DNA of 64,000 nucleotides from Phycisphaerae bacterium (lineage in GTDB: Bacteria; Planctomycetota; Phycisphaerae; Sedimentisphaerales; Anaerohalosphaeraceae), in assembly GCA_014859965.1 (NCBI GenBank), contig JACZKQ010000134.1, positions 1 to 64,000 on the forward strand, in the 5' to 3' direction. The notes beneath the pieces are model-generated. The model saw nothing but the letters and a program-made list of their open reading frames with translations, made no database searches and had not been told where the DNA came from. Both the position numbers and the translations under genes were made by a program. Numbering within the stretch: the first letter of the stretch is position 1; the number at the start of each line of letters is the position of its first letter. Shown piece after piece: positions 2,919 to 20,676 of the stretch.

Positions 2919-3180
2919 TGCGAATTACACCAAATTTAAGCCTTTGAAGATTAAGCGAGCCAAACTCATGCTGCCGACACGCGGCTTTGGCGTCGCCTGA
3001 GAGGCAGATAGATAACACTTCCGCCGTCGGCGTGTCAAGGAAAAAGCCGGCGCGGGCCAATGGGCATGTCGGCAAAAAGGCGCTCCAGCGTAAAGAAATC
3101 ACCTGGCGCGACCGAAAAGCGCACGTTTGCGTATAAATAGTGTTATGAAAGCGAAAGCCGGGTATGTAAGGAGCCTTATC

Positions 3181-3390
3181 ATGTATGAAACGCAACAAAA
3201 AGGTCATGCGGGCCATATAGATGCGCACGGGCTGGGGTCCAAAGCTCAGCACCTGTTGCATGACGAACGATTTTGGGCGATTTTCGCGATCGTGGTAATT
3301 CTCGCCTTGTTGATTACGCTGGCGATAATTGCAGGCCAGGGAACCGGCGGAGCCCCGGATTATACGCCCATGTACCCTTACTATCCGTAG
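3181..3390 (+). CDS. Small single-pass membrane protein, unknown function
   Basis: A 69-residue protein with a His-rich N-terminus (GHAGHIDAHG), one strong transmembrane helix at about residues 32-51 (AIFAIVVILALLITLAIIAG) and a short Tyr/Pro-rich tail ending YPYYP. I chose the ATG at 3181 because an AAGGAG sits 8 bases upstream; an in-frame TTG at 3127 would add 18 residues without a good ribosome site. It stands between divergent and convergent neighbours, so it is probably transcribed alone. I do not recognise a family. Confidence 0.6.
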   Translation: MYETQQKGHAGHIDAHGLGSKAQHLLHDERFWAIFAIVVILALLITLAIIAGQGTGGAPDYTPMYPYYP

Positions 3391-3407
3391 CTGGAATGAC
3401 AGCAGGG

Positions 3408-4052
3408 CTATGGAACTTCCGGGCCAGCGTGAAGGACAGAGATCAAAAGGGGGCGAAGGTTAGCTAGAGCGGCTCCCCGATGCGACACTGCATTCTTTTG
3501 TTGGGCGGTTAATTCTGCCACGGTGCAGTTGCGGCCGGGAAGAAAAAAAATCGGATCGTAGCCAAATCCGTTGGTGCCTGACTCACGGTGTGTTATCCGG
3601 CCGGGCAGTGAGCCCTCTGCCTCTGCAAGAACCCGGTCTGGCGAGGCGAGGCAAATATTACAAACAAAGCACGCGGTACGTTTTTCGTCCGGTACATTTT
3701 CCATCAACGACAACACTTTAGCCATGTTGCGATGGTCGAGGAGTTGGCGGGTGTCGGGTTTCTTGACCGGCCCGGAAAACCTGGCGCTGCGAACGCCGGG
3801 ATCGCCGCCGAGCGCGTCGATTACAAGGCCGGAGTCGTCGGCAAGGGTCCACAGTCCTGTAGCGGCCGCATACCCGCAGGCTTTCTTGCGGGCGTTCTCC
3901 GCAAACGACTGACCGTCCTCGGGCACCTCGGGGACGTCGGGAAAATGTGCGAGGGTGAGCCACCGAACGTCTACATCCAAGGCGCCCAGCATGACAGTAA
4001 GCTCAGCGGCCTTGCCGCTGTTCGTCGTCGCAATCAGGATCTCTCTGCTCAT
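3408..4052 (-). CDS. rdgB: RdgB/HAM1 non-canonical purine NTP pyrophosphatase
   Basis: Hydrolyses dITP, ITP and XTP to monophosphates, keeping deaminated purines out of DNA. Visible family motifs are ATTNSGKAAE at the N-terminus (T-x-N-x-x-K), DDSGLVIDALGG-PGVRSARF in the middle, and GFGYDPIFF followed by the SHRGAAL end motif. The length (214 aa) is close to the usual ~200. It begins 17 bases downstream of argF and is probably the last gene of the argD-argF-rdgB operon, so its link to arginine synthesis is positional only. Confidence 0.93.
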   Translation of the reverse strand: MSREILIATTNSGKAAELTVMLGALDVDVRWLTLAHFPDVPEVPEDGQSFAENARKKACGYAAATGLWTLADDSGLVIDALGGDPGVRSARFSGPVKKPDTRQLLDHRNMAKVLSLMENVPDEKRTACFVCNICLASPDRVLAEAEGSLPGRITHRESGTNGFGYDPIFFLPGRNCTVAELTAQQKNAVSHRGAALANLRPLLISVLHAGPEVP

Positions 4053-4069: not shown

Positions 4070-4981
4070 TTATGCCAGAAGTTTCTTCAGCAGGGCTCGC
4101 TGGAAGTGGAGCCGGTTTTCAGCCTGATCGAAGATAACTGAGTTGGGTGATTCGGCGACTTCGTCGGTGATTTCGAGACCGCGATAAGCGGGCAGACAGT
4201 GCATGATTTTGGCTTTTGTCGGCGCGGCCTTGAGCAAATCGGCGTTTACCTGGAACCCTTCGAAATCCCTGACGCGTTTTTCTTTTTCTTCTTCCTGGCC
4301 CATACTGACCCACGTGTCCGTGTAAATGACGTCGGCGCCGTTTACCGCGGCGACCGGGTCATGTGTCTGAACGGCTGTGCCGGGGGTGATCGCGTTGGCC
4401 TGGTCGATGGTTGCGGCGTCGAGTTCGTAACCGGGCGGGGTGGCGCAGGCGTATTTCAAGCCGAATTTCGCGCAGGCGAAGGCCAGCGAGCGCGCGACGT
4501 TGTTGCCGTCGCCAATGAAAGTGAGCTTGAGGCCCTCCAGTGGGCCGCAATGTTCGCGGATGGTGAGCATGTCGGCCATGGCCTGGCATGGGTGCGACCA
4601 GTCGCTCAGTGCATTGATGACCGGCACGCTGGCGAAGCGGGCCAGTTCGACAATGGTGTCGTGCGCGAAGGTGCGCGCCATAATGCCGTGAACGTAGCGG
4701 CTGAAGACGCGGGCCATGTCTCGGGCGGGTTCGCGTTTGCCGATGATGCCGATGTCTTCGGGCTTGAGATAAATAGCGTCGCCGCCGAGGTCGACCATCG
4801 CCACATGAAAACTGACGCGGGTGCGAAGGCTGGTCTTTTCGAAGAGCATGGCCAGCGTCTTGCCGGCCAGGCAAAGGTCACGGCCGCCGCCGGCGTAGAG
4901 ATTCTTCAACTCCGCGCTGAGGTCCAGCAGCTCGTGGAGCTGATCGCTGGATAACTCGTTAAGTGCCAGGAAATGCTGCAT
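4070..4981 (-). CDS. argF: Ornithine carbamoyltransferase
   Basis: Makes citrulline from ornithine and carbamoyl phosphate. Motifs present: the carbamoyl-phosphate loop as SLRTR (a variant of STRTR), HPCQAMAD for the H-P-x-Q loop, DTWVSMGQE, and HCLPAYRG with the ornithine-binding Cys. The 303-residue form from the ATG at 4981 is standard length; AGGAAGGAT lies just upstream. The gene starts 4 bases after the argD stop, so the two are surely co-transcribed and consecutive steps of arginine synthesis are paired. Confidence 0.95.
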   Translation of the reverse strand: MQHFLALNELSSDQLHELLDLSAELKNLYAGGGRDLCLAGKTLAMLFEKTSLRTRVSFHVAMVDLGGDAIYLKPEDIGIIGKREPARDMARVFSRYVHGIMARTFAHDTIVELARFASVPVINALSDWSHPCQAMADMLTIREHCGPLEGLKLTFIGDGNNVARSLAFACAKFGLKYACATPPGYELDAATIDQANAITPGTAVQTHDPVAAVNGADVIYTDTWVSMGQEEEKEKRVRDFEGFQVNADLLKAAPTKAKIMHCLPAYRGLEITDEVAESPNSVIFDQAENRLHFQRALLKKLLA

Positions 4982-4985
4982 GTTT

Positions 4986-6167
4986 CTATCCTTCCTGTGC
5001 GAGTGCACTGTCAAGAATGGTCATGGCCTCGTCGATCTGCTCGGGCGTGACGGTCATCGAAGGCATGAACCGCAGGACGTTGCCCTGGGTGCAGTTAATG
5101 CGGAGACCCTTTTCGAGACAGTTGTCCACAATGCCGGCGCCGGGTGCGTTCAGTTGGATTCCGATCATCAGGCCCGTGCCGCGGATCTGGGTGATAACGG
5201 GGTACTTGTCCTTGAGGGCGGTCAGTCTTTCGACGGCGTACTTGCCCATGGCGGCGGCATTCGCCAGGAGATCGTCGGCCTTAATGGCCTCCAGTACGGC
5301 GATGCCGGCGGCACAGGCCAGCGGGTTTCCGCCGAAAGTGGATGCGTGGGTTCCTGGAACAAGACAAGCGGCCATGTGCTCTGTCGTCATCATTGCGCCG
5401 ATGGCGACGCCGCCGCCGAGGGCCTTGGCCATGGTGATCACGTCGGGCTGAACGTCATAGTGCTGATAACCGAACCATTTTCCGGTCCTGCCGAGTCCGG
5501 TCTGAACCTCGTCGAGGATCATGACGGCGCCATTGGCGTCGCAGAGATGGCGAATGGTCTGCATGTATTCTTCGGTGGCCATATTGATGCCGCCTTCGCC
5601 CTGAATGGGCTCGATCATGACGCCGGCGACCTCGTCGGTGAACGCGGCCTGCAGGGCATCGACGTCGTTGAAAGGCACGTATTCGAAGCCCGGCAGCATG
5701 GGCAGGAAGCCCTCGTGGTACTTGGGTTGAGCGGTGGCGGTCACGGTGGCGAAGGTGCGGCCGTGAAAGCTGCCTTCGGCGGTGATGAACTTGTATTTTT
5801 CGCGAGGGGTGAACCTGCGAGCGAGTTTCAGCGCGGCCTCGTTGGCCTCGGCGCCGCTGTTGCAGAAAAAGCACTTGCCGCCGAAAGCCCGCTGCGAGAG
5901 CATTTTCGCTAACTGGCCCTGCTGGGGGATGTAGAAGGTATTGTCGATGTGCAGAAGCTCACCGGCCTGTTTTCGGATGGCCTCGACGACCATGGGATGG
6001 CAGTGGCCGATGCCGCTGACCGCCCAGCCCGGAAACATGTCCAGGATCTTGTTGCCCTCGGCGTCGTAGAGGTAGTTGCCCTCGCCCTTAACGATGGCGC
6101 GGGGCAGACGCTTGTAGTTGGCGACGACATACTTGTCGAACATGTCCATGACTTCAGTGGTGTTCAT
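4986..6167 (-). CDS. argD: Acetylornithine aminotransferase (class III PLP enzyme)
   Basis: Converts N-acetylglutamate semialdehyde to N-acetylornithine; many members also act on succinyl-diaminopimelate. The 393-residue protein has the class III features: FCNSGAEANEAALKLAR for PLP phosphate, FHGRT, DEVQTGLGRTGKWF, and the PLP lysine in TMAKALGGG. I start it at the ATG at 6167 (GGAAGG upstream); a longer in-frame reading adds residues without family similarity. It leads the argD-argF-rdgB operon. argB lies separately near 14 kb. Confidence 0.94.
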   Translation of the reverse strand: MNTTEVMDMFDKYVVANYKRLPRAIVKGEGNYLYDAEGNKILDMFPGWAVSGIGHCHPMVVEAIRKQAGELLHIDNTFYIPQQGQLAKMLSQRAFGGKCFFCNSGAEANEAALKLARRFTPREKYKFITAEGSFHGRTFATVTATAQPKYHEGFLPMLPGFEYVPFNDVDALQAAFTDEVAGVMIEPIQGEGGINMATEEYMQTIRHLCDANGAVMILDEVQTGLGRTGKWFGYQHYDVQPDVITMAKALGGGVAIGAMMTTEHMAACLVPGTHASTFGGNPLACAAGIAVLEAIKADDLLANAAAMGKYAVERLTALKDKYPVITQIRGTGLMIGIQLNAPGAGIVDNCLEKGLRINCTQGNVLRFMPSMTVTPEQIDEAMTILDSALAQEG

Positions 6168-6392
6168 GTGAAAACCTTCCAAAGCAGTTACTGCATTCAA
6201 TGTTACCCTGTTCGGGTTACAAACAACACCCCTTCGGCGTTCAAGGGAAATGAACTGTCGACACGGGGCCAGGGACGCTGCAAAACGCAGTAACGTAATG
6301 ACGGCTGCTTCCGTTGTCAAGCAAAAACCGCTCCCGGCGGCTCGCCGATTTTACCTGCCGTCGCAAAGCCGAATCAGGAATTCGGGCCGGGA

Positions 6393-8918
6393 TCACGGCA
6401 TTCCGGCGATTCGTTGCGGGTTGGGCGCCGAGCCTTCGGGATTGGCCGGATCGTAGGTAAAGATATCCCAGTAAGCGCGATCGGCTTTGTAGGGGTCGAC
6501 CTGGTCGGGGGTTGTGCCTTGCGGCAGGATGCCGAAACGGACCATTTCGCGGACGTACTGGTGGTTGACCTGGAAGTTGGGGGCGCCGAAGCGGCGGGCC
6601 TTGAGCCATTCGGTCTGCCAATTCTTTGCAGCCTTGGCCATGGTCTGATAGTCCGGATCGTCAGTCGACTTGAATACGTCAGGGCAGGCGCCCCAGCCGC
6701 CCGCGGCCTTATCCAGCGGGGCCAACAGCACCGCGGATTTGTCGGGGCGGGTGGCGTTGAGCAGAACGTTCCAACTATAATGCCGCAATGGATCGTCTTT
6801 GATGACCATGCGTTCATAGGAGCCCGTGGGCCGGTTAAAGAGCGGACGCCGGGCGTCGTTGTCATAGCCTTCGCCGAGCTTGTTCCGGGGGCCCTTGCCG
6901 TTTGGATTGTGGCAACTGTAACAGCGTTTGCCAAGAATGCCGCCGCCGCCGGCAAACGCGCCGAACTTCACGTCCTGCTGAACTGCGTTTCGCAGGCCGC
7001 CGTTGGTGCCGCAGAAGGGGGCCGCCGCTTCTGTCCACGCCCAGACCTTCAGCCAGTCGGCACGATCGGCTTTGATGTCGTGGTGGCCGCCTTCGAGCTT
7101 GCGAAGGATGGGTGAAGCGCTCGAGCCCAACGACCGCGCGGGCTGATTGCCGTGTCCGTTTCGGCCGTCGGCGACCTGCTCCCGCATGATCAGCGACCAA
7201 TAGCTGATAGAAAATGTGGAGCCCATGTCGTCCTCCAGCGAGAGCCGGCCTTTGTAGTCGTTGACGTTGTGGCAGCCGACACAGTATTTGTCGAGAACCG
7301 GCTGGACATCGCGTATAAAGTCGGGCACGTCGGGGGCGCCGGCGACCGGCGTGATTTTCGACGGAGCTCGCTGCATGGCCAATACCCGGCTGGTGTCGCC
7401 GTAGTTGGTGCGGGAATGCTGCCGGTTTTCGTGGCAGCCGAGGCACGTCATGGTCTCGCCGGGCATGACGCTGGTGAAGCTCTGCATACGCTTGACGGAA
7501 AGGTCGTTTTCATCGAGCGCCACGTAGAAGATCGGCCGATTGGCGGGCAATTCGAAATTAGCCGATCCATCGGCCTCAACCGGGACGGTGCCGAGGATGC
7601 GTTCGAGGTTGAAGGAGCCTAACCAACTGAGCGTGTCCGGGCCGCCGGAGAAGTTCACGGCCTTCGGGAGGGTTTCAAGGATAAGAAGCTTCTTTATCTC
7701 GCCGCGTTTGACGCCTTCCATATTCTGCGAATTATAGACGTCCATCAGGATGTGCGTACCGGTCTCTTTGCGGGGATCAGTGCGGCTGGCAATAAGGCTT
7801 TCGCGCGGGCGCGCAAGGATGGGCTGCGGGTCCTGTGTAAGCCATTTGCGGTCGTTGTTCTGGATCTCGTAGAGAATGCGAAAGCCGTACTTCTCGCCCT
7901 GCTTTTCGACGACAAGGAGCCGGGACTTGTACCTGTCGGCGGCGAGGATTGTGTTGGCGCTGAGCGGCCAGGGGTCGCCCAGGTTCAGCCGTCCGCCACG
8001 AACATAATCGATGTGCTGGACGCCGCGGGGGTCGTCGGGACCATAGCGGCTGGAGAAGAAGGCGAGTTGGCCATAATGGTCGTTTTGGCCGTGGCCGGGC
8101 GAAAAGACGCCGAGGACGCGGTCGTCGCCCGGGACGGGGCGGCAGCTCAGGAACACGCCCCACGGTCTCTGATTGCCGTAGTAGATGATCTGGTTGGTTC
8201 CGTCGGGGTTCATCGTCCAGAGGTGGTGGAACTCGACCTGTGAGCGGTCGACGTATTCCCATCGCATATAGAGTATCTGACCGTTGGGCAGCACGGCGGG
8301 TGTGTTGTCGTGTTCAATGTTGCAGGACAGGGCGCGGATGTTTCGGCCGTTGGCGTCGCAGCGGTGGATGGTGCCGACCTGGGTCATCCAGCAGCCCACC
8401 CAGCGGCGAGCGCGGGTGGAGACGAAAACAATGTCGCCGTCGGGGAGGTATTCCGCTTCGTAATCGTCGAAGGGGCCGGAGGTGATCTGGCGGAGATTGC
8501 CGCCGTCGATATCGATCTCATGCAGATGGTAATAGGGTGAGCCGTCCGTGCGGTATGAGAAGAGGATTTTGCCGCCGTCGTAATGCACCTTGGGGTCGCG
8601 GATGCAGCCGTTTTCAGTCTCCAGCAGGATCGAGATTTTGCCCGTTTTGAGGTTCAGCCTGCACAGTTGCGCACCGGTGGTATAGGCCAGGTTGTTCTCG
8701 TCGTCGCAAAAATAGGCGATATTTGCGTACCAGTGGGGGTCTTCGTAACCGCCCCGCTGGAGGAAGATAATTTCTTCGCATGCCGCAAGTTCTGCGGGCA
8801 GATCTTTCAAGGCGTCGTGCATCACGCCGCTATTGACGGTTTCCAGTGTCGGCAGAGCCGCCGAGGCAATGGCTGCCTGAAGCATCAGAACAAAAGCTGC
8901 AATTCTACACCGCATCAT
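6393..8918 (-). CDS. Exported HZS-alpha-like beta-propeller/c-type heme protein
   Basis: An 841-residue exported protein with a Sec signal (about residues 1-20). Residues ~60-420 hold TolB/WD-like propeller blades (YLPDGDIVFVSTRA, VLPNGQILYMRWEYVD). The second half has three heme-binding CxxCH sites: CLGCH near residue 490, CVGCH near 546 and CYSCH near 667. This layout matches the family of planctomycete proteins that resemble the alpha subunit (middle domain) of anammox hydrazine synthase. Nothing nearby supports anammox, so I do not infer hydrazine synthesis; an exported redox or carbohydrate-related role is equally possible. AGGAGG sits 5 bases before the ATG, and a good promoter lies upstream. 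The gene appears intact and monocistronic. Confidence 0.8.
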   Translation of the reverse strand: MMRCRIAAFVLMLQAAIASAALPTLETVNSGVMHDALKDLPAELAACEEIIFLQRGGYEDPHWYANIAYFCDDENNLAYTTGAQLCRLNLKTGKISILLETENGCIRDPKVHYDGGKILFSYRTDGSPYYHLHEIDIDGGNLRQITSGPFDDYEAEYLPDGDIVFVSTRARRWVGCWMTQVGTIHRCDANGRNIRALSCNIEHDNTPAVLPNGQILYMRWEYVDRSQVEFHHLWTMNPDGTNQIIYYGNQRPWGVFLSCRPVPGDDRVLGVFSPGHGQNDHYGQLAFFSSRYGPDDPRGVQHIDYVRGGRLNLGDPWPLSANTILAADRYKSRLLVVEKQGEKYGFRILYEIQNNDRKWLTQDPQPILARPRESLIASRTDPRKETGTHILMDVYNSQNMEGVKRGEIKKLLILETLPKAVNFSGGPDTLSWLGSFNLERILGTVPVEADGSANFELPANRPIFYVALDENDLSVKRMQSFTSVMPGETMTCLGCHENRQHSRTNYGDTSRVLAMQRAPSKITPVAGAPDVPDFIRDVQPVLDKYCVGCHNVNDYKGRLSLEDDMGSTFSISYWSLIMREQVADGRNGHGNQPARSLGSSASPILRKLEGGHHDIKADRADWLKVWAWTEAAAPFCGTNGGLRNAVQQDVKFGAFAGGGGILGKRCYSCHNPNGKGPRNKLGEGYDNDARRPLFNRPTGSYERMVIKDDPLRHYSWNVLLNATRPDKSAVLLAPLDKAAGGWGACPDVFKSTDDPDYQTMAKAAKNWQTEWLKARRFGAPNFQVNHQYVREMVRFGILPQGTTPDQVDPYKADRAYWDIFTYDPANPEGSAPNPQRIAGMP

Positions 8919-8961
8919 GGCTACCTCCTAAGCAGGAATATCTGTTTCCGATTACTGCACT

Positions 8962-8990
8962 ATAGTATCGGATACGGCCGCAGGAATCAA
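8962..8990 (-). promoter_or_regulatory. Sigma-70-type promoter for the HZS-alpha-like gene
   Basis: On the minus strand TTGATT (8985-8990) and TACTAT (8962-8967) are separated by 17 bases, about 45 bases before the start codon. The match to the vegetative consensus is good and no other gene is served by this direction. Confidence 0.6.
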
Positions 8991-9129
8991 GTCTTGCTGG
9001 ATTGCGTCCATTTCGCAGAACTCTCAAGAAAAGGATGCAGCCGTAACACATTGGTAACATCGACCCGCTACAAATTCTGTTGTGGGAACGAGAAAAATCA
9101 TGTTAACCTGTTACGGAAAGGAGTTTGAA

Positions 9130-10953
9130 ATGAAAGACTGGACAATGAGGCTGGTTGTGCTGCTCTTGATGGTGCCGGCGGTGTGCGTGAATGGCGCGGC
9201 GCCCAAGGTGGTCGGGACGGTGCCGCAGAACGGGGACCAGACCGTGTGGCCGGGCTTGCAGCGAATACGGATCGTCTTCGACCAGGACATGGAGGCCGGT
9301 GGGTACTCGCTGTGTACAACGGACGCCCAGTTCCCGGAAATTTCCGGCGAGCCCAGGTGGGCTGACAAACGAACCTTAATATTGGCTGCAAAGCTGAAGC
9401 CAGGGACCGAGTACGGCATGAGCATCAACTCACTGGACCACAAGAACTTCAAGAACGTACTTGGAGAGCCCGCGGAGGTTCATGTCGTGACATTCAAGAC
9501 GGCTGCCGCTGGGGGCGCGGTCGCTGCGGCGTCAATCGCGCGATCGCCGGCCATGCTGCTGCAGCAGGGGCGCTACGCCGAGGAGACCGAGGGCGACCTG
9601 GACAAGGCGATCGAACTCTATGAGCAGGCTATCGAGCGAGCCGACCGGATTCAACGAATTGCCGCAGAGGCGACGTTTCAACTCGGCATGTGCCACTTGA
9701 AGAAGGGCGACAAGGCGGCGGCCGGGCACTATTTCGGGAAGGTCGTGAAGGACTTTGCCGACCAGACCTCGGTTGTTGAGAAGGCGCGGCAGCAGCTTGG
9801 CAAGATCGAGCCGGAGAAGGTGGACTCTGTGTTTGAGCAGATGTCCGATCAGGTGCTCACGTTCGTTGCGCAGACGTACGGGATACTGGTCGCCCGGGCA
9901 ATGGCGGAAAGTCTGCCCTGCAACGCCCACCTCTATTGTGTCGATGCGGACTTCAATGGCTATTCGGGCGGACTGGGGTATCATTACAACTGGACCGGGC
10001 GTTCGCTGACGGGCAGGGTCCATCTCTCGGGGACGAGTGTTCCAGATCAGACGCTCTACGATGCCACAGGGGAGAAGCTCGACATCGAAATCGTCGCCGA
10101 CCAGGAGAGGGCCAACTTCTATCACATCTACTGGATACCGAAGGAGCCGCTCAAACCGCAGGAAGCCCTCTATTTCGGTTGGAGCAACAACAAGAAAAGG
10201 GCTCTCAATCGTCTGCCGGACAGCGGCGGCGCCATGTTAACAATGCACAATGAGTACGGCCCCAAGGTGCTGGAGACGTTCTTCCTCGTGCTGCCGGCCG
10301 GGCTTGAGATCGCCGGCGAGGCAAAACCGACGGAAACTCGCGACTTCGGCGACTATAAAGTCCTCTGGTGGACCAAAGAAGTGCCCGAGAAGACGAGCCA
10401 TACTGAGAACGTACTCATACGGACTCGGGCCGGCGTTACGGATGCCACGGTGGTTGCCAATACAGTCGGCGAAGTGGTTCTGACCATATCGACCTGCGCC
10501 GAGACGGATCCTCGCGTGGCGGCGTCGCTGGTGAAATTGAAACCTCTGGATGCGAAGAAGGCCGTTACGGAGGTCGCCAGGTATCTCGATTCAGACAAGG
10601 CGACGGTGCGGCGTTCGGCGATCTTTGTACTCTGGCGGGGCGGTTTTGACAGCATTGGGCCGGTCGAGAAAAAGCTTGTCACGCTTTGCTCGCATTCGGA
10701 GAACTTGACGCGGGGCATGGCGGCCTTGGCGCTGGGTGCGGCCAAGGCTGAGGCCTCATACGATGCGCTCGTAAAGATGACGCTTGACGACGCAGACGGG
10801 TATGCACGGCGGTGTGCGGCATACGCATTAGGATGTTACGGCGACGCCAAGGCCCTGGATGTCCTGCAAAAGGCGGTTCAGGACAAGGACCCGCTGGTCG
10901 GGCAGAATGCCCAGGCAGCGATCAACATGCTGACCGAAAAGAAGGACAAGTAA
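9130..10953 (+). CDS. Exported Ig-like/TPR/HEAT repeat protein
   Basis: A 607-residue protein with a signal peptide (residues ~1-22, ending VCVNGA). Next is a Big_5-type Ig-like domain (~23-115: PQNGDQTVWPGLQRIRIVFDQDM, shortened here to its theme of conserved QDM and VVTFKTA ends), then TPR-like helices (~130-235, including YEQAIERADRIQRIAAEATFQLG), an unrecognised beta-rich middle part (~240-460), and HEAT-like repeats to the end. The start is the ATG at 9130 with GGAAAGGAG upstream. It ends 7 bases before the histidine kinase gene, so the three genes 9130-13640 form one operon. I infer a role in sensing or envelope scaffolding; no catalytic motif is visible. Confidence 0.75.
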   Translation: MKDWTMRLVVLLLMVPAVCVNGAAPKVVGTVPQNGDQTVWPGLQRIRIVFDQDMEAGGYSLCTTDAQFPEISGEPRWADKRTLILAAKLKPGTEYGMSINSLDHKNFKNVLGEPAEVHVVTFKTAAAGGAVAAASIARSPAMLLQQGRYAEETEGDLDKAIELYEQAIERADRIQRIAAEATFQLGMCHLKKGDKAAAGHYFGKVVKDFADQTSVVEKARQQLGKIEPEKVDSVFEQMSDQVLTFVAQTYGILVARAMAESLPCNAHLYCVDADFNGYSGGLGYHYNWTGRSLTGRVHLSGTSVPDQTLYDATGEKLDIEIVADQERANFYHIYWIPKEPLKPQEALYFGWSNNKKRALNRLPDSGGAMLTMHNEYGPKVLETFFLVLPAGLEIAGEAKPTETRDFGDYKVLWWTKEVPEKTSHTENVLIRTRAGVTDATVVANTVGEVVLTISTCAETDPRVAASLVKLKPLDAKKAVTEVARYLDSDKATVRRSAIFVLWRGGFDSIGPVEKKLVTLCSHSENLTRGMAALALGAAKAEASYDALVKMTLDDADGYARRCAAYALGCYGDAKALDVLQKAVQDKDPLVGQNAQAAINMLTEKKDK

Positions 10954-10960
10954 ACTGAAG

Positions 10961-12958
10961 ATGCAAGGTTCGACAAATCCGTTACGGTGGGTGATATTGC
11001 TGCTGGTGGCGGCGGTGATATTGCCCACCGTATGCCTGCTGTGGTTCATGACGCAGGCGGTGGAAAACGCACAACTGGCTGTAAAGACGAAGTTGGAGGA
11101 CGTTTATACCCGCCAGTGTCAATCCGCCGCGCAGAACGGGCTGAGGGCGGATTGGGTGTTATTGTGCACCAGTTTACCCGGCGCCGACGGCATACTTGTA
11201 TATGGCACCGCTGGCGTTCTCACGTTTCCCGTACCTGATAACATGAATGTCTCTGCCTCCGATGATTTTGAGGCGCCCTTCCGATTCGAATATGAGCACG
11301 AGTCCTATGACCAGGCTCTACAGGCATATCGCCAAATCGCCGAACGTTCGACAGATAATGCCATCCGGATCAAGGCCGAAGTTTCAGAGGCACGCTGCCT
11401 GCATAAGCTCGATAGAACGACGGAGGCGATCGCGAAACTAAATGACGTTTTGACCCGTTACGGTGACAGCGACATTGGGGTTAGAATTGAAAAGTGTCGT
11501 GCACATCTGCTGCTTCTGGACCTGTCCATGGAGGTCGACGGACCGGTATTTGAGAAGATATGGCTTGGCGCATACGATTACGCGGCGCGAGGGGTGACCC
11601 GCGATGAACTGGCGGTTGTTGGAAGGCCCGATTTCCTACAGATTGCGCTTCCGTCCGCCCTTCAGGCATTTGCCCTGACGCGACTGCTTGAGTGTGCAGA
11701 CAAGGTGGCAATGAGTGCGGATGCCAAAGCGAGAATTAAGTATGCGCAGAGGCTTGTCCCAACTCTTGAACTGTCGCTATCCGTTGCTGATCAAAGACTT
11801 GCGCCCGATTCCGATGATTGGGGGCTTTGCCGAAGGCTGGACGCCGAAGGGCAGTTATATGGCCGCTATGTGCAAATGCGGTCGCATGGCTATCTCCTGG
11901 TTTTTACGAGGGAAAGCATGGCGTCCATGTTGGTTCCCTATGTGGACGATCTGCAGAAACTGCCCTCGTTTTGCCGTGTGTACGACGAAAGAGGGGACTA
12001 CATCGCCGGGGCGGATGTTCCCGCAGGGCGAAAGCCCTTTGTCGTGGCGCCGGTGGCATGTGAATGGCCTTTTTCAGAACTCGGAACGACTTACCGATTT
12101 GATCCGGGCTGGTCGGCGCAGTTGTTTGTCGACGACGTGACCTTCGACAATGTTGCGAACAGGCAGGCAGCCGTTTACCTCTGGTCGACAATCCTGATGG
12201 TGACGTTGCTCGTCTTTTGCAGCGGAGCCGCAGCGCATCTGGTAATGAGGCAGCAGCGTACAAATCGGCTGAAAAACGATTTTATTGCGACGGTGACGCA
12301 TGAACTGAAGACGCCGCTGTCCTCGATGCGGGTGCTGGTGGATACGCTGCTGGAAGGGCGGTACGAGGACCGTGTGCAGGCCGTCGAGTACCTTCAATTG
12401 ATTTCGAAGGAGAACCTGCGGCTCAGCCGGCTGATCGACAACTTCCTGACGTTTTCGCGAATGGATCGCAACAAGCAGGCCTTCGAGATCGTGAAGACTT
12501 CGGCCAACGGGATTGCGGAGGCGGCTGTGGAGGCCATGCAGACAAAGCTCAACGGCGGACGCTGCCAATTCAGCGTGTCGATGCAGGAGCATTTGCCGAC
12601 AGTGCTTGCGGACAAGGATGCGATGGTGACAGTATTGGTGAACCTGCTGGACAATGCGTGCAAATACACGCGCGACGACAAACGCATCGAATTGAAGGTC
12701 TGCACCGAAGATAACATGGTACGCTTTTCCGTCACCGACGACGGTATCGGCATGACAGGCCGACAGGTGAAACGGATATTTGACCGGTTCTATCAAGCGG
12801 ATACTTCGCTCTCTCGGCGGGCCGAGGGCGCGGGCCTGGGCCTTGCAATCGTCAAGTTCATCTGCGAAGCCCATCATGCAAAGATAACAGTCAACAGCCA
12901 GCCCGGCGAGGGAAGCACCTTTACCATAGGACTCCCGGGTGCCGAGAGTAACGGATAA
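10961..12958 (+). CDS. Membrane sensor histidine kinase with TPR-like outside domain
   Basis: A 665-residue kinase. A first membrane helix lies at residues ~9-30 and a second at ~403-427; the ~370 residues between are outside the cytoplasm. That domain contains TPR-like helix pairs around residues 110-180 (YDQALQAYRQIAER, TTEAIAKLNDVLTRYG) rather than a known ligand fold. There is no HAMP: the second helix leads straight to the H-box (ATVTHELKTPLSSM, H447), followed by an N-box (LVNLLDNACKYT), DDGIGM and GAGLGLAIVK. All kinase boxes look intact. It sits between an exported TPR/HEAT protein and its response regulator, 4 bases from the latter. Confidence 0.92.
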   Translation: MQGSTNPLRWVILLLVAAVILPTVCLLWFMTQAVENAQLAVKTKLEDVYTRQCQSAAQNGLRADWVLLCTSLPGADGILVYGTAGVLTFPVPDNMNVSASDDFEAPFRFEYEHESYDQALQAYRQIAERSTDNAIRIKAEVSEARCLHKLDRTTEAIAKLNDVLTRYGDSDIGVRIEKCRAHLLLLDLSMEVDGPVFEKIWLGAYDYAARGVTRDELAVVGRPDFLQIALPSALQAFALTRLLECADKVAMSADAKARIKYAQRLVPTLELSLSVADQRLAPDSDDWGLCRRLDAEGQLYGRYVQMRSHGYLLVFTRESMASMLVPYVDDLQKLPSFCRVYDERGDYIAGADVPAGRKPFVVAPVACEWPFSELGTTYRFDPGWSAQLFVDDVTFDNVANRQAAVYLWSTILMVTLLVFCSGAAAHLVMRQQRTNRLKNDFIATVTHELKTPLSSMRVLVDTLLEGRYEDRVQAVEYLQLISKENLRLSRLIDNFLTFSRMDRNKQAFEIVKTSANGIAEAAVEAMQTKLNGGRCQFSVSMQEHLPTVLADKDAMVTVLVNLLDNACKYTRDDKRIELKVCTEDNMVRFSVTDDGIGMTGRQVKRIFDRFYQADTSLSRRAEGAGLGLAIVKFICEAHHAKITVNSQPGEGSTFTIGLPGAESNG

Positions 12959-12962
12959 TGCG

Positions 12963-13640
12963 ATGGAAACGGTTCTGATCATTGAAGACGATGCGACGAT
13001 GCTGCGGGGGCTGAAGGACAACTTTGGCTATGCGGGTTACAATGTCCTTGCGGCGGCCGACGGCGAGACGGGGCTGAACACCGCGCTCGACGCCAAACCC
13101 GACCTGATCATCCTCGATATCATGCTGCCGGAGATTAACGGCTATGAGGTTTGCCGCCTCATCCGCAAGGAAAAGCTCGATATGCCGATCATTATGCTCA
13201 CTGCAAAGGGAGAAGAGTCGGACATCATTCTTGGCCTTAACCTCGGCGCTGACGACTACGTCACTAAGCCGTTCAGCATCAAGGAATTGCTCGCCCGCGC
13301 GGCCGCCTTCCTGCGGCGGAGGCGGCAGGAGGAACAGGACGCATACACGTTCGGGGATTTCGTCTACGACGTGCCCGCGCGAAAGCTCATGCGTAAGAAA
13401 CGTGAGATAGAGCTTTCGCCCAAGGAATACAAGCTGCTCGAACTGTTCGTCAAGCGGCAGGGCAAAGCATTGACCCGGGATGAAATCCTCAACACCGTCT
13501 GGGGCTACAACAGTTTCGCCGGCCACCGCAGCGTCGACCGATTTGTCACCACCCTGCGAGGCAAGATAGAACCCGACTCGCACAACCCCACCTTTATCCA
13601 CACCCTGAGAGAAATAGGCTACAAGTTCGAACCTTGCTGA
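12963..13640 (+). CDS. OmpR/PhoB-family response regulator
   Basis: A 225-residue regulator. The receiver has IEDD acidic residues at the N-terminus, the phosphorylated Asp at D52 (LIILDIMLPE), the switch Thr in MLTAKGEE and the Lys in DYVTKPFS. The C-terminal winged helix (FGDFVYD...LSPKEYKLLELFV...VDRFVTTLRGKIE...GYKFEPC) is a PhoB-type DNA-binding domain. The ATG at 12963 lies 4 bases after the kinase stop; a GTG 24 bases earlier is possible. It is the obvious partner of the upstream kinase. Its targets are not visible. Confidence 0.95.
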   Translation: METVLIIEDDATMLRGLKDNFGYAGYNVLAAADGETGLNTALDAKPDLIILDIMLPEINGYEVCRLIRKEKLDMPIIMLTAKGEESDIILGLNLGADDYVTKPFSIKELLARAAAFLRRRRQEEQDAYTFGDFVYDVPARKLMRKKREIELSPKEYKLLELFVKRQGKALTRDEILNTVWGYNSFAGHRSVDRFVTTLRGKIEPDSHNPTFIHTLREIGYKFEPC

Positions 13641-13659
13641 CGCTTGCCGGTGCGGTGAA

Positions 13660-14535
13660 TTACTTGACGATCTGGGTGCCGATGCCTTTGTCGGTATAGA
13701 TCTCCAGGAGCAGCGAGTGCGGAATTCGGCCGTCGATGATGTGGGCCTTTTTGGCTCCGCCATCCAGCGCAGTGATGCAGGCCTCGACCTTGGGCTTCAT
13801 GCCGGAGGTGATCACGCCGTCGGCGATCATCTTTTCGATCTCGGCTTCGCTTGCGGAAGATATCTGGGTTGCGGGGTCGTTAATGTCAGTGAAAATGCCG
13901 TGCGTGTCGCTGAGGACGACGAGCTTTTCGGCCTCGACGGCGGCCGCGACCTTTCCCGCGACGCTGTCGGCATTGATGTTCAGTTTGCCGCCGGTCTTGG
14001 TGCAGCCGATGGTGGCGATGACGGGAATCACGCCGGCGTTGCAGACGGTGGTGAGCAGGCCGGCGTTGACGTGGATGACCTTGCCCACCAGACCCAGGTC
14101 GAGCTTGCGGCCGTCCTCGCCCTGCATCTGCAGCGGTTCGGCAAAGACCACGCAACTGCTGAGACTGTGCAGGCCCATGGCCTTGCAGCCCAACTCTTCG
14201 ATCATTTCGCAGATGGGAGTGTTGATCTTGTGGATGAGCGTGTGCTCGGCGATCGCCAGCGTCCGCTGGTCGGTGTATCGCCGGCCGTGCACCCAGACCG
14301 GCTCCAGGCCAGCGTCGGCCATCGCTTTGGTGATGGCCTTGCCGCCGCCGTGAATGATGATTGAGCGGATGCCGACTGTGGCCATAAACACGATATCAGT
14401 AAGCAGCTTTTTCTGCAGATCGAGGTCTTCGAGGATGCTGCCGCCGAGTTTGACCACAACGATGCGGCCATGAAAGCGGCGGATATACGCCATCGCCTCG
14501 ATGAGTGCCTTTGCCTTTTCAATCGCTTTTTCCAT
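13660..14535 (-). CDS. argB: Acetylglutamate kinase
   Basis: Phosphorylates N-acetylglutamate in arginine synthesis. Signatures: VVVKLGGSIL at the N-terminus, IHGGGKAI for the substrate loop, VWVHGRRYTD, NINADSVAGKVAAAV and LVVLSDTHGI for the ATP side, and the late GGMKPK-like motif as SGMKPKVEACI. The 291-residue length is normal. The ATG at 14535 has AGGAT upstream. It lies 35 bases downstream of tRNA-Thr on the same strand, so the two may share a transcript. It is convergent with the two-component operon and apart from argDF. Confidence 0.95.
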   Translation of the reverse strand: MEKAIEKAKALIEAMAYIRRFHGRIVVVKLGGSILEDLDLQKKLLTDIVFMATVGIRSIIIHGGGKAITKAMADAGLEPVWVHGRRYTDQRTLAIAEHTLIHKINTPICEMIEELGCKAMGLHSLSSCVVFAEPLQMQGEDGRKLDLGLVGKVIHVNAGLLTTVCNAGVIPVIATIGCTKTGGKLNINADSVAGKVAAAVEAEKLVVLSDTHGIFTDINDPATQISSASEAEIEKMIADGVITSGMKPKVEACITALDGGAKKAHIIDGRIPHSLLLEIYTDKGIGTQIVK

Positions 14536-14570
14536 GGATGATCCTGCTAAAACCACGTTTCATGCTGAAA

Positions 14571-14642
14571 AGCCAACGGAGGGAATCGAACCCTCAACCG
14601 CTGGTTTACAAAACCAGTGCTCTACCGTTGAGCTACGTTGGC
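14571..14642 (-). tRNA. tRNA-Thr (anticodon TGT)
   Basis: Read on the minus strand, the acceptor arms GCCAACG and CGTTGGC pair fully. The D-arm is GCTC/GAGC, the anticodon arm has CTGGT and ACCAG flanking a loop with TGT, and the T-arm holds GTTCGATTC. The length is 72 nt and no CCA is encoded. argB follows in the same direction. Confidence 0.95.
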
Positions 14643-14755
14643 GACGGCCTGCGGCATCACGCTTCTTTCTGCCGGCACAAACGGGGTATACTACGTATGG
14701 GGGCCCGCGGTTGCAAGACATTTCTATGCAATCTTACGCTGCTGCGACTGGGGGG

Positions 14756-14783
14756 TTGAGTTGTTGGAGAAAGTGTCTATACT
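14756..14783 (+). promoter_or_regulatory. Likely promoter for glyQS
   Basis: TTGAGT (14756-14761) and TATACT (14778-14783) are separated by 16 bases. They lie about 90 bases before the glyQS start in the only direction that has a gene downstream. No T-box-like leader is apparent in the remaining 90 bases. Confidence 0.5.
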
Positions 14784-14871
14784 GTGGGGTCTTTGCCGGT
14801 GCAGAGTCATTCGATGGCGCGGGCGCCATTGTGACGCTATGGCGCGGCATTTTTAGGATTTAAGGTGTTTT

Positions 14872-16338
14872 ATGGCTAAGATTACAAAACTGGATGACAT
14901 TGTGTCGCTTTGCAAGCGGCGTGGTTTTATTTTTCAGTCGAGCGAGATATACGGTGGGCTGGCGAGCTGTTACGACTACGGCCCCTTGGGTGTGGAGCTC
15001 AAGAGGAACGTTCGGAACGCCTGGTGGAAGCGGGTCGTGCAGATGCGGGACGATATTGTCGGCTTGGATTGCAGTATTCTGATGCATCCGATGGTGTGGA
15101 AGGCGTCCGGACATGCCGACAAGTTCGCGGACCTGGTGACGGTATGCCGCAAGTGCAATACCCGCTCGCGGGTGGACCATCTGGCCGACGACGGCGAGGA
15201 GCATACGGCGCACGTGCGGGTGGAGGCGGCGATGGCCGAGGCGGGGGAACTGGCGAGGAAGAAGTGCCCGGCCTGCGGGGCGGTGGGTCAGTTTGCCGAG
15301 CCCATGGCGTTTCGGTTGATGTTCGAGACGGAAATGGGGGCGAACGTTGACGACACGATGACGCTGTTTCTCCGGCCCGAGACGGCGCAGGGCATTTTTG
15401 TCAACTTCCGCAACGTTATGGACTCGACCCGCGTGAAGGTTCCGTTCGGCATCGCCCAGATCGGCAAGAGCTTTCGCAATGAAGTGACGACGAAGGCGTT
15501 TATCTTCCGGACGCGGGAGTTCGAGCAGGCGGAGCTGGAGTTTTTCTGTGCACCCGGGACGGACGACCAGTGGTACGAATACTGGAAAGCGGAGCGGTTC
15601 AGGTGGTATACCGACCTCGGGATTCAAGGCGAGAACCTGCGGCTGCGCGAGCATGATCCGGACGAGTTGGCGCATTATGCAAAGGGGTGCGTGGATGTGG
15701 AGTATCGGTTCCCGTTCGGGTCAGGCGACTGGCAGGAGTTGGAGGGGATCGCCAACCGGACGGACTTCGACCTGCGGCAGCACCAGCGAGGCATGCGGAC
15801 GATGAACGACTGGTATGAGGCGGGGCGCGATTTGACAAAGATTACGCTCAAGGAGGAGGATGCCGATTACATCAAAGGGCCGCTGTCGTACTTCAACGAG
15901 GAGACGAAGGAGCGGTTTGTGCCCTATGTGATCGAGCCGAGCGCGGGGATCGACCGGAGCACGTTAGCGTTTCTGGTGGACGCGTATGACGAGGAGGAGG
16001 TCAAGGGCGAGACACGAAATGTGCTGCGGTTTCATCCGGATTTGGCGCCGGTGAAGGCAGCGATCTTTCCGCTGGTGAAGAAGGATGGAATGCCGGAGAT
16101 TGCGCGGAAGATATATGACGACCTGAAGGCGCGGTTTACATGCTTCTACGATGAGAAGGGGGCGGTGGGGCGGCGCTATCGGCGGCAGGACGAGGCGGGG
16201 ACGCCGTTCTGTATTACCGTGGATGGTCAATCGAAAGAGGACAATACCGTGACGGTTCGCGACCGGGATTCGATGGAGCAGATCCGCGTGGGCGCCGATC
16301 AGATTCGTGGATATCTGATGGAGCGGCTCGGGATGTAG
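14872..16338 (+). CDS. glyQS: Glycyl-tRNA synthetase, dimeric class II type
   Basis: Charges tRNA-Gly. The 488-residue protein is the single-chain alpha2 type found in eukaryotes, archaea and some bacteria, not the alpha2beta2 type. The N-terminus has RGFIFQSSEIYGG and YDYGPLGVELK; motif 2 is SFRNEVTTKAFIFRTREFEQ; motif 3 is EPSAGIDRSTLAFL; the anticodon-binding domain is at the C-terminus. A Zn-type cluster CRKC...CPAC is inserted near residue 90-140. The gene is intact. Confidence 0.96.
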   Translation: MAKITKLDDIVSLCKRRGFIFQSSEIYGGLASCYDYGPLGVELKRNVRNAWWKRVVQMRDDIVGLDCSILMHPMVWKASGHADKFADLVTVCRKCNTRSRVDHLADDGEEHTAHVRVEAAMAEAGELARKKCPACGAVGQFAEPMAFRLMFETEMGANVDDTMTLFLRPETAQGIFVNFRNVMDSTRVKVPFGIAQIGKSFRNEVTTKAFIFRTREFEQAELEFFCAPGTDDQWYEYWKAERFRWYTDLGIQGENLRLREHDPDELAHYAKGCVDVEYRFPFGSGDWQELEGIANRTDFDLRQHQRGMRTMNDWYEAGRDLTKITLKEEDADYIKGPLSYFNEETKERFVPYVIEPSAGIDRSTLAFLVDAYDEEEVKGETRNVLRFHPDLAPVKAAIFPLVKKDGMPEIARKIYDDLKARFTCFYDEKGAVGRRYRRQDEAGTPFCITVDGQSKEDNTVTVRDRDSMEQIRVGADQIRGYLMERLGM

Positions 16339-17962: not shown

Positions 17963-18438
17963 TAAGCTGCGTGCATCTCGTCGCTTAATATTCGATCCTT
18001 GGACTGTCCAGCGCGTGTCTGATAAGCTTGCCGCACAGTCCTGTCTGTACCGCGGGCAGGGGCATACCGAGGAGGCGGGGGCAATAAACTCTCCGTTCCG
18101 TGCGTCTGTGCTGTGAGAGCGTCGACACGGACGTCAAGAAGCGGCAAATTCCTGGATTTCAGACGGCGGTAAATTGCGCGCTAAAATTGTGTCAAGGCCG
18201 CTTGAATCTGTCGATAGAAACAAATGCCGGGGTGCTAATGAAAAGAGGAATGTGTCAGATGTTGAGATACGCGTGCATTTATTCGGACGGATCGAAACGA
18301 TTTAATGCATGATTTCTCGAATAAGTCGGTGTATTTGCTTGACGTGGTGGAATCCCTGCATATAATAAGGTCACCGGCACGGCCGGTCGGGGGCCCCAAG
18401 GGGATCTGTTGTTCAGGACCTTATCGGACGGAGTTGGC
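17963..18438. other. Long intergenic stretch with one promoter
   Basis: These 476 bases hold no convincing gene. I see no tRNA, no clear structured RNA and no repeats. The only strong signal is the promoter at 18339-18366. A strong GC-rich run (GGGGGCCCC) sits between that promoter and the start of the next gene. Confidence 0.5.
18339..18366 (+). promoter_or_regulatory. Strong sigma-70 promoter
   Basis: TTGACG (18339-18344) is followed after 16 bases by a perfect TATAAT (18361-18366). It is about 72 bases before the GTG start of the HEAT-repeat gene and points at it. It is among the best consensus promoters in the window. Confidence 0.7.
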
Positions 18439-20676
18439 GTGCGGAACGTAAACCTCATAATCTGCATTTTCCTGCTTTGGACAATCCGTCTCAGTTCGCG
18501 GGTTGCAGCCGAAGAGGCGTCTGCCGTTGTGGGGCCGGTCACGGCAGCGGACCGGGAGCAGGATGCATCACGTCAGCTTCGGATTTATGAGGAGGCACTC
18601 CTTCGCGGTTCGACCGATCAGAGCCGGACGGATGCGGCGATTGAGCTTCTGCGTCGGGGAGACGATGGGGCGTGGGAGGTGCTGATGAAGGCGCTCCTGA
18701 ACGGGGAACACGCGGCCGGCCGTCAGGCGGTTTGCCGAGGCCTCATCGCAAGCCGTTCATGGCCTGACAACCTGCGGAGCCGCAAACCATTCCTTGAACC
18801 TCTGCTGGGCATTCTGATTGACACTTCGGGCGCCGACGCACGTCTGGCGGCCGAGGCGTTGCTGGTGTTTCGCTATGCCGAGGTGGGCGAGCGTTTGGGG
18901 CGGCTGGCCCGCATGTCAGAACTTAATCGGCAGGTTCGGCTGAACGTTGTTTACACGCTGCGCTTGTGGCCGGACAAAGACGCCGTACTGGAGCTGGTCA
19001 ATCTTCTGGATGACGCCGACCCGGAGGTTGCATCGGCGGCATCGGCGGCGCTTCCATACTGGATCGGCACGGCGGCGGACAAGCAGACGATTCTCAAGGA
19101 ACTGCAGCGCAAGACCCCGGACGAGATTATCAAGGCCCGGCTGGAGGGTCTTCAGCAGCAGATGACCAGACTGGAGGGCGAGCGGGACTCGTGGAAGAAA
19201 CTGTATCTTGGAGCACTCGATCGCGAGTACGAGAAATCCGACGAGGACGGCAAGGGGAAGATGCTCGTCGAAAAGATGGCGGCCGAGCATGCGCCGGTGC
19301 GGCAGTGGGCGGTTCATAAGACGGCGGCGTTTACGGGGTCGCGGCCGAAGGGGTTCCGTGATAACCTGCTGTCGCTGATTTCGGACAAAGATCGCGAGAT
19401 TCGGCTGACCGCAGCGCGCGTGTTAGCCAATATGAGCGCGTTGGACCCGGCGGCCAAACTCCTGGCTCAACTGAAGGTCGAGCCCTATTCGGATGTGAGT
19501 CTGGCAATATTCGATGCGCTGGGTGAGGCGTGTTTCTTTGCGTCTTCTCCAGGATCGCCGATTGCTCTGGAGGAAGCGATCCGGGCCGAGACCCTTGCGA
19601 TCGCGGGCAAGTACCTGCAGAACGCAGAGGTGCGGGTGGCGATGCAGGGGGCGGCGGTGCTGGGCAAACTCCTGGAGTTGAACAACCTTGAGGGAGACGG
19701 CGCAGAGTCGTACCTGGGCCTTCTGGCAGAGCGTTATCAGCAGACCAAAGGAACGGTGCCAGCGCTTCGGGGGGAAATCCTGGCGGTGATGTCGCGCTTA
19801 TGTGTCAACGGGAGCCATCGACAGCAGGCGGGTGTGCTTTTCCGGCCATTCTTTCTGGAGGGACTTGGGGCGGGCGACGATAATATTGTCCGTGAGGCGT
19901 CCGCGACGGGGCTAATGAACATCGACAAGTCGGCCGCGTTTCGTTACTTCAAGGAGAACGGGCTGGCCAATGATCCGAGCGTGATCGTTCGTCGAACGGT
20001 AGTGCGCCTTGCCGGTGAACTGGGTGGAGCCGCAGACGTGGCGTGGCTTGCCGAACGGATCAACGGCAACGGCGAGGCGGAAGCGGCGTGGCAGGGGATG
20101 CGTGATATTCTGCTGCGGCAGGACGCAAAGGCGGTCTACGGGTGGGCACAGAAGGTAGCGGCGGGCGAAGACAAGTATAGTCATGCGCGGGAACTTCTGG
20201 AGATGGCGGAGAAGAAGGCCGAAGCCTCGCCGGATGCGGACTTGCTCCGTGCCGTGCGAACGGACCTTTGCGACTGGTACGGGCAAAGGGGCGATTACGC
20301 CAAAGTCATCGCTTACGCCGATCAACTGTTGCGGGCGGCCAGTGGTGCAGAAAAAGAGAATTTGCAGTTGCGACTCCTTGAGGCCTATCTGCAGACGGCC
20401 GACGCGGCCAAGGCGGCGGTACTGATGGGCGAGCGGTTGACTGCAAAGGACACTGCGGCGGACGATGCGTTTGCAGCGCGGATCGGGACATTTCTGGGGC
20501 TCCGCGACATCAATCCGGGCACGAAGACAGCGGTCGTTGAGGCCCTTGGGGCCATTAAAGCGCCCGCCGCACGGCCGCGATGGACGGCTCAACTCAACAC
20601 GTGGCGAAACATAGTGGCGGCCAAGCCGGCACAGCCCGTAACGGCCGCCTCTGTGCCGCCGACGGCCGACAAGTAA
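18439..20676 (+). CDS. Large exported HEAT-repeat protein with TPR-like end
   Basis: A 745-residue protein. I start it at the GTG at 18439, which has GGACGGAG upstream and gives a clean signal peptide (LIICIFLLWTIRLSS, cleavage near residue 25). Residues ~50-560 are HEAT-like helical pairs (AVLELVNLLDDADPEVASAAS, SLISDKDREIRLTAARVLANMS in parts). Residues ~600-700 look like TPR helices (YGQRGDYAKVIAYADQLLRAA, LRLLEAYLQTADAAKAAVLM). No catalytic motif is seen. It is likely a periplasmic scaffold or binding protein, transcribed alone from the promoter upstream. Confidence 0.75.
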   Translation: MRNVNLIICIFLLWTIRLSSRVAAEEASAVVGPVTAADREQDASRQLRIYEEALLRGSTDQSRTDAAIELLRRGDDGAWEVLMKALLNGEHAAGRQAVCRGLIASRSWPDNLRSRKPFLEPLLGILIDTSGADARLAAEALLVFRYAEVGERLGRLARMSELNRQVRLNVVYTLRLWPDKDAVLELVNLLDDADPEVASAASAALPYWIGTAADKQTILKELQRKTPDEIIKARLEGLQQQMTRLEGERDSWKKLYLGALDREYEKSDEDGKGKMLVEKMAAEHAPVRQWAVHKTAAFTGSRPKGFRDNLLSLISDKDREIRLTAARVLANMSALDPAAKLLAQLKVEPYSDVSLAIFDALGEACFFASSPGSPIALEEAIRAETLAIAGKYLQNAEVRVAMQGAAVLGKLLELNNLEGDGAESYLGLLAERYQQTKGTVPALRGEILAVMSRLCVNGSHRQQAGVLFRPFFLEGLGAGDDNIVREASATGLMNIDKSAAFRYFKENGLANDPSVIVRRTVVRLAGELGGAADVAWLAERINGNGEAEAAWQGMRDILLRQDAKAVYGWAQKVAAGEDKYSHARELLEMAEKKAEASPDADLLRAVRTDLCDWYGQRGDYAKVIAYADQLLRAASGAEKENLQLRLLEAYLQTADAAKAAVLMGERLTAKDTAADDAFAARIGTFLGLRDINPGTKTAVVEALGAIKAPAARPRWTAQLNTWRNIVAAKPAQPVTAASVPPTADK

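Follow-up and report, generated by a model that had tools for sequence, protein, structure and literature searches.

An exported TPR protein, a histidine kinase and a PhoB-type regulator encoded in one recurrent operon probably form an autoregulated envelope sensor

The 64-kb stretch of DNA analysed here (the window) carries an operon coding, in this order, for an exported protein hereafter called A (9130-10953, 607 aa), a sensor histidine kinase (10961-12958, 665 aa) and an OmpR/PhoB-type response regulator (12963-13640, 225 aa). The three genes and all the features of the operon lie on the + strand. Intergenic gaps are 7 bases between A and the kinase and 4 bases between the kinase and the regulator, and the gene calls of the window reproduce the coordinates, the single operon and the gaps given in an earlier note on this DNA. 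The A-kinase-regulator arrangement is far beyond chance and recurs in dozens of genomes belonging to several phyla. The coupling of A and the kinase is well supported by their co-occurrence (41/41 kinase-bearing genomes), by their genetic linkage and by the TPR-like solenoid predicted in the kinase. We propose, with a probability of about 60%, that the operon encodes an autoregulated three-component envelope sensor in which A, as a predicted docking and sensor protein, binds the kinase by its TPR module.

The N-terminus of A is a hydrophobic export signal. A hydrophobic N-terminal segment was found in 60 of the 62 members of the A family and a lipobox in 2 of them, indicating that A is mostly not a lipoprotein. 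The description of A as an exported Ig/TPR/HEAT protein devoid of enzyme motif was borne out: Pfam analysis highlighted a Big_5 Ig-like module (residues 23-124, positions 9196-9501, E = 2e-5) and HEAT repeats (residues 438-603, positions 10441-10938, HEAT_2 E = 7e-15) without any enzyme domain, and the TPR module (residues 140-225, positions 9547-9804) was delimited by the family alignment, by AF2 helices and by HMM matches in all A proteins. This list of modules was however incomplete since it overlooked a beta-sandwich that is absent from Pfam (residues about 264-432, positions 9919-10425). In the AF2 model of A (mean pLDDT 86.5), the strands of this sandwich, with pLDDT >90, are located between the TPR and the HEAT modules, and the same module is seen again in relatives in which the module order has changed. 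Sel1 repeats reached only E = 0.22 in Pfam, where the TPR and HEAT families dominate. Foldseek gave beta plus ARM look-alikes of M1 peptidases (TM 0.14-0.21) and HEAT designs; as Pfam shows no peptidase family, a peptidase or other enzyme function of A was rejected. The TPR is the sole part of A retained throughout the family. The Big_5 and HEAT modules are swappable and, together with the beta-sandwich, DUF3108 and PsbP-like modules, are shuffled among relatives in changing order, laminin-G lectin, beta-helix, PD40 and long TPR arrays being further exchangeable modules. An invariant TPR associated with a shuffled remainder is expected of a docking part equipped with exchangeable readers.

In the kinase, the HisKA dimerisation/phosphoacceptor domain (residues 438-503, positions 12272-12469, Pfam E = 2e-15) and the HATPase_c catalytic domain (residues 551-659, positions 12611-12937, E = 3e-27) were identified, and HAMP went undetected in all 66 relatives, in agreement with the absence of HAMP reported in the earlier note. 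The outside region had been described there as TPR-like and free of any known ligand domain. In the AF2 model (mean pLDDT 85.7, about 95 in the solenoid stretch), a run of paired helices forms a TPR-like solenoid at residues 101-276 (positions 11261-11788), and the A-TPR profile compared with the kinase by hhalign matched residues 99-168 (probability 92.9, E = 3.7e-7). With Pfam on the single kinase sequence, the TPR matches in this region were all sub-threshold, and a PDB sequence search with the sensor alone gave only weak TPR/PPR-type chains (best E = 3e-4). The TPR-like character is therefore retained on the basis of AF2 and hhalign, whereas the statement on ligand domains needs a caveat. 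On either side of the solenoid, the AF2 model has strands (residues 77-89 and 289-389), and their order possibly resembles that of a PDC/Cache sheet, so that the beta-sheet part (residues 277-391, positions 11789-12133) may be PDC/Cache-like. Foldseek matches of the whole kinase model were dominated by the catalytic core and did not confirm this assignment.

The first transmembrane segment and the next helix of the kinase (residues 11-50, positions 10991-11110, LPTVCLLWFM..V.N..LAV..KL) stand out by their column identity. Mean values reach 0.78 in TM1 and 0.71 in the following 17 residues; they drop to 0.33-0.37 for the outside region, with 0.53 for the surroundings of TM2 and 0.81 for HisKA. 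TM1 is thus as conserved as the catalytic core. Conservation of the TM1 helix LPTVCLLWFM...NERLAVRQKL at this level holds across phyla; it could be accounted for by a specific membrane contact, and we have no other explanation to offer.

The regulator consists of a REC domain and a winged-helix Trans_reg_C domain (Pfam E = 1.5e-30 and 6.6e-24, respectively), which confirms the OmpR type previously assigned to it, and the region of its recognition helix, RSxDRfvtTLRnKIE, is conserved in 48 members. With HisKA and HATPase_c in the kinase and REC and Trans_reg_C in the regulator, the pair belongs to the OmpR/PhoB family, and the tandem direct-repeat operator near -35 that characterizes this family is present as a predicted operator with an 11-bp period and a fixed -10 spacing. 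The pair does not qualify as an equivalog of the PhoR/PhoB phosphate system, as all the NCBIfam scores are far under the cut-offs: the nearest names are PnpS (225 bits, cut-off 400) and PhoR (195, cut-off 334) for the kinase core, and RpaB (213 bits, cut-off 330) and PhoB (207.5, cut-off 296.2) for the regulator. In loci L082, L089, L094, L111, L120 and L143, two tandem PhoB-type regulators instead of one are found behind the kinase. An anti-phage defence function was discarded because the PADLOC matches merely correspond to generic HATPase, REC and HEAT.

The operon promoter (positions 9018-9074, 51.3 bits with a 58-bp weight matrix) is composed of degenerate upstream half-sites, a tandem box and a -10 element. 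The box, GTAACA-cattg-GTAACA (positions 9043-9059), is a PhoB-type tandem operator with an 11-bp period and the predicted binding site of the regulator. The -10 element tacaaa (about 9069-9074, family consensus TATAAT), recognized by position-specific conservation, lies 9 bp past the box. When the promoter architecture was aligned over about 50 loci, the family box GTAACA-N5-GTAACA was present upstream of A in essentially every locus, preceded by two weaker half-sites of the same period and followed, nine to ten bases past the box, by a TATAAT-like -10 conserved at positions +26 to +31 relative to the start of the box. The box is perfect in 32 of 52 A promoters and has at most one mismatch in 45 of the 52, while shuffling the same sequences gives 0.05; locus L145, missed in this test, has a 42.6-bit site slightly further upstream. 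In E. coli, PhoB recognizes tandem repeats of 7 bp separated by 4-bp spacers (PMC4971064), and these repeats overlap the -35 region (PMC3348028). This layout designates the A promoter as a PhoB-type activated promoter of different sequence. The fixed spacing of the -10 after the box is typical of PhoB-type activation, and we infer that the box is bound by the regulator of the same operon for activation and not for repression.

In the envelope-sensor reading, A would be exported and its TPR module would dock on the kinase's TPR-like solenoid, while its swappable modules (in this case Ig, HEAT and beta-sandwich) would monitor the condition of some component of the envelope or surface. A docking or release event would be relayed to HisKA via the highly conserved TM1 and TM2, and the kinase would phosphorylate the regulator. 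The latter would bind the tandem GTAACA boxes, which overlap -35, to activate A-kinase-regulator and, in a subset of genomes, between one and three additional genes for exported or envelope products. Both a direct TPR-TPR contact between A and the kinase and envelope damage as the signal are presumed here, whereas the 'protein-level status' put forward in the earlier note as a signal found no support. The mirror-tree comparison of the A TPR with the kinase gave r = 0.43 and a partial r of 0.20 after the catalytic domain; this correlation mostly reflects the shared operon history and is not specific for contact. The sign of the control could be fixed by assuming a homeostatic loop like those of ExoR/ExoS or CpxP/CpxA, in which free A would hold the kinase off; titration of A by its target, or degradation of A, would make the kinase fire, and more A would then be made. 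ExoR provides the precedent of an exported alpha-solenoid kinase inhibitor (PMC4550343), and the location of A at the head of an autoregulated operon suits negative feedback. However, the sign of control is not readable from the sequence, and QseG, whose gene also accompanies that of its kinase, acts as an activator (PMC6075780). We regard an inhibitory A as somewhat unlikely; it is a sub-case of the envelope-sensor reading with its sign fixed and is compatible with it.

The exact box occurs once in the 5.28-Mb host genome, at the A operon, and one extra match with one mismatch is within the control level; a large regulon was not found in this genome, the box being limited to the A operon. The earlier note mentioned neither the conserved PhoB-type promoter, nor this restriction to one operon, nor the TM1 signature. 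The 58-bp weight matrix, applied to selected loci and to the 64-kb window, gave a median of 57 bits for the operon sites and did not exceed 15.5 bits over 1.15 Mb of reversed sequence, and the operon promoter is the only site >12 bits in the window. A wider promoter pattern detected 44 sites in 48 system-bearing genomes versus 2 for the reversed pattern. The non-operon sites >27 bits are mostly located ahead of exported or envelope proteins, the targets being a GH127 lipoprotein, a GyrI-like protein, a TIKI/DUF5694 protein followed by DUF4097, a DUF2268 protease, a DUF4097 lipoprotein, a beta-lactamase-fold protein, an HlyD protein, a Big_5-AhpC protein and unknowns. In genomes G178 and G248, the single DUF4097 gene sits in a unit predicted to be controlled by the box, and G268 shows the same arrangement with a weak 18-bit site. 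DUF4097/toastrack proteins are known to accompany envelope-stress two-component systems (PMC11237479). The DUF4097 gene of the host genome (L219) has no box and, the box being confined to the operon, an envelope regulon is therefore not demonstrated in the host. Box matches in L164, L166, L167 and L173, in which the promoter context is absent, were discarded as likely chance. At L214:787 (genome G245), a 57-bit operator-promoter precedes only a 13-codon frame and no recognisable gene; a small RNA, a lost gene or a very short peptide are candidates for this site.

The fact that the host genome has the box solely at the operon of A would also fit an effector role of A, in which the kinase would sense through its own beta/TPR outside domain and the output would be A itself, a structural or binding envelope protein. 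The lectin, beta-helix and HEAT binding modules carried by A and the additional box targets, likewise exported proteins, point in the same direction. This role is nevertheless rather improbable, as it leaves unexplained both the invariance of the TPR compared with the changing 'working' modules and the TPR match between A and the kinase.

Relatives were sought in named genomes with the kinase N-terminal alignment and with patterns derived from TM1 and the following helix, A having no role in this query. Eighty loci were kept, originating from Planctomycetota (mostly Sedimentisphaerales/Phycisphaerae), Verrucomicrobiota and relatives, Acidobacteriota and two MAGs labelled Deltaproteobacteria; the same three-gene order, sought in other planctomycete genomes as previously suggested, recurs there and in further phyla. 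An A-TPR gene was automatically called upstream of 58 of the 72 TM1-bearing kinases recognised. The remaining 14 comprise 10 kinases at contig starts, one with a frameshifted A (L105) and three with gaps; runs of N are found upstream of the kinase in L088, L119 and L141. For several of the contig-start kinases, a partial upstream frame ends in a TPR or another A-like tail. All assembled upstream genes are A or A-like, and no kinase clearly devoid of A was found among the 72. Of the two outcomes that would have spoken against the coupling according to the earlier note, a kinase outside region with no predicted TPR fold and kinase relatives clearly lacking the exported gene, neither was observed. 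In 298 same-class genomes, the kinase was detected in 41, the A-TPR in 49 and both in 41 (about 7 expected by chance); A adjoins the kinase in 38 of these 41 genomes and the kinase is at a contig end in the other 3. Six of the eight genomes with A only are weak matches (47-68 bits); the other two are G274, with A and its box at a contig end, and G213, in which a diverged kinase and regulator are followed by an A-type protein with no box (L177, 62-5629). This last pairing and the kinase-free A-type TPR proteins of some genomes (L179 and L180) indicate that the A-type TPR is not reserved for this kinase. Among 294 genomes drawn across the phylum, the kinase was present in only 12, most with weak scores. 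Ordinary adjacency of an unrelated exported TPR protein and a generic PhoR-like kinase, conceivable because these genomes commonly encode TPR and HEAT proteins and the kinase and regulator earn no special family name, is rejected in view of the gene order recurring across phyla, the complete co-occurrence and the shared promoter.

It is tempting, if still doubtful, to go further and suppose that one kinase, its TM1 signature and a private operator have been reused across phyla, the sensing modules being swapped behind a constant TPR docking unit, which would retarget the core to lectin-, HEAT-, Ig-, beta-helix- or propeller-bound signals. In L055 (G024, 4446-15363), two A genes surround the kinase and regulator, the second with DUF3108 and PsbP-like modules; DUF1648 and methyltransferase-like genes are also found around the pair, followed by a lipoprotein that is toastrack-like by eye. 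In L180 (G221, 1753-3691), a short membrane-anchored A-type TPR protein is encoded directly after an apparent sigma-70-type factor gene (by eye), and other regulators may also make use of the TPR module. In the window, positions 6393-8918 (- strand), divergent from the A operon, encode an exported protein with an HZS_alpha middle domain (hydrazine-synthase alpha, E = 4e-21) and several CxxCH haem motifs; the host genome is not otherwise shown to be anammox. A second HEAT-repeat protein is encoded near the operon (18409-20676, + strand, HEAT_2 E = 2.5e-23) and is followed by a beta-helix protein (21191-22930).

The operon gives a testable signalling unit, including a promoter and a candidate regulon, in planctomycetes, a group about whose envelope biology and regulation little is known. 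As the operator is nearly private to the operon, the input-output loop is unusually easy to test and, if the docking is true, the kinase could be retargeted by exchange of its secreted partner instead of its own sensor domain. No paper on the A-kinase-regulator layout was found in the open-access literature; the earlier statement that no such system is described goes too far as regards the principle, for which QseG-QseE and ExoR-ExoS are precedents. The system appears to be a new and undescribed family among accessory-protein two-component systems.

The LiaFSR/PSP toastrack systems (PMC11237479) resemble it by the DUF4097 genes found among the box targets of some relatives, a likeness founded on the second targets of two or three genomes; PspA, PspC and LiaF were absent from the three window proteins and the neighbouring genes scanned. 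The PhoR-PhoB/PnpS/WalK class provides the nearest kinase and regulator names and shares the PhoB-type tandem operator overlapping -35 (PMC3348028, PMC4971064), but the kinase studied here has a different sensor with no HAMP or PAS, the box sequence differs and there is no link to phosphate genes. In the ExoR-ExoS-ChvI system of Rhizobiales, the exported ExoR, made of six Sel1 repeats, acts on the periplasmic domain of the kinase ExoS and holds it off (PMC4550343). An exported alpha-solenoid partner and an OmpR-family regulator are common to both systems, whereas ExoR is a repeat-only inhibitor of about 268 residues and a Sel1-repeat protein, and A is a TPR/HEAT protein, without recognized Sel1, that has exchangeable extra modules. 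The ExoR gene is encoded apart from exoS-chvI; in contrast, A sits in the kinase operon and the kinase has its own TPR-like solenoid. The QseE-QseG-QseF system of Enterobacteriaceae is also a three-gene operon of a kinase, an exported partner and a regulator, in which QseG binds the periplasmic domain of QseE and switches the kinase on (PMC6075780, PMC12691602), and its response is envelope-linked, like the reading proposed here. QseG is however an outer-membrane lipoprotein, which A mostly is not, and the sensor of QseE is a four-helix bundle, compared with a TPR-like solenoid plus beta strands in the AF2 model of our kinase. Finally, QseF acts at sigma-54 promoters, whereas the operon described here combines a PhoB-type regulator with a sigma-70-like -10 element.
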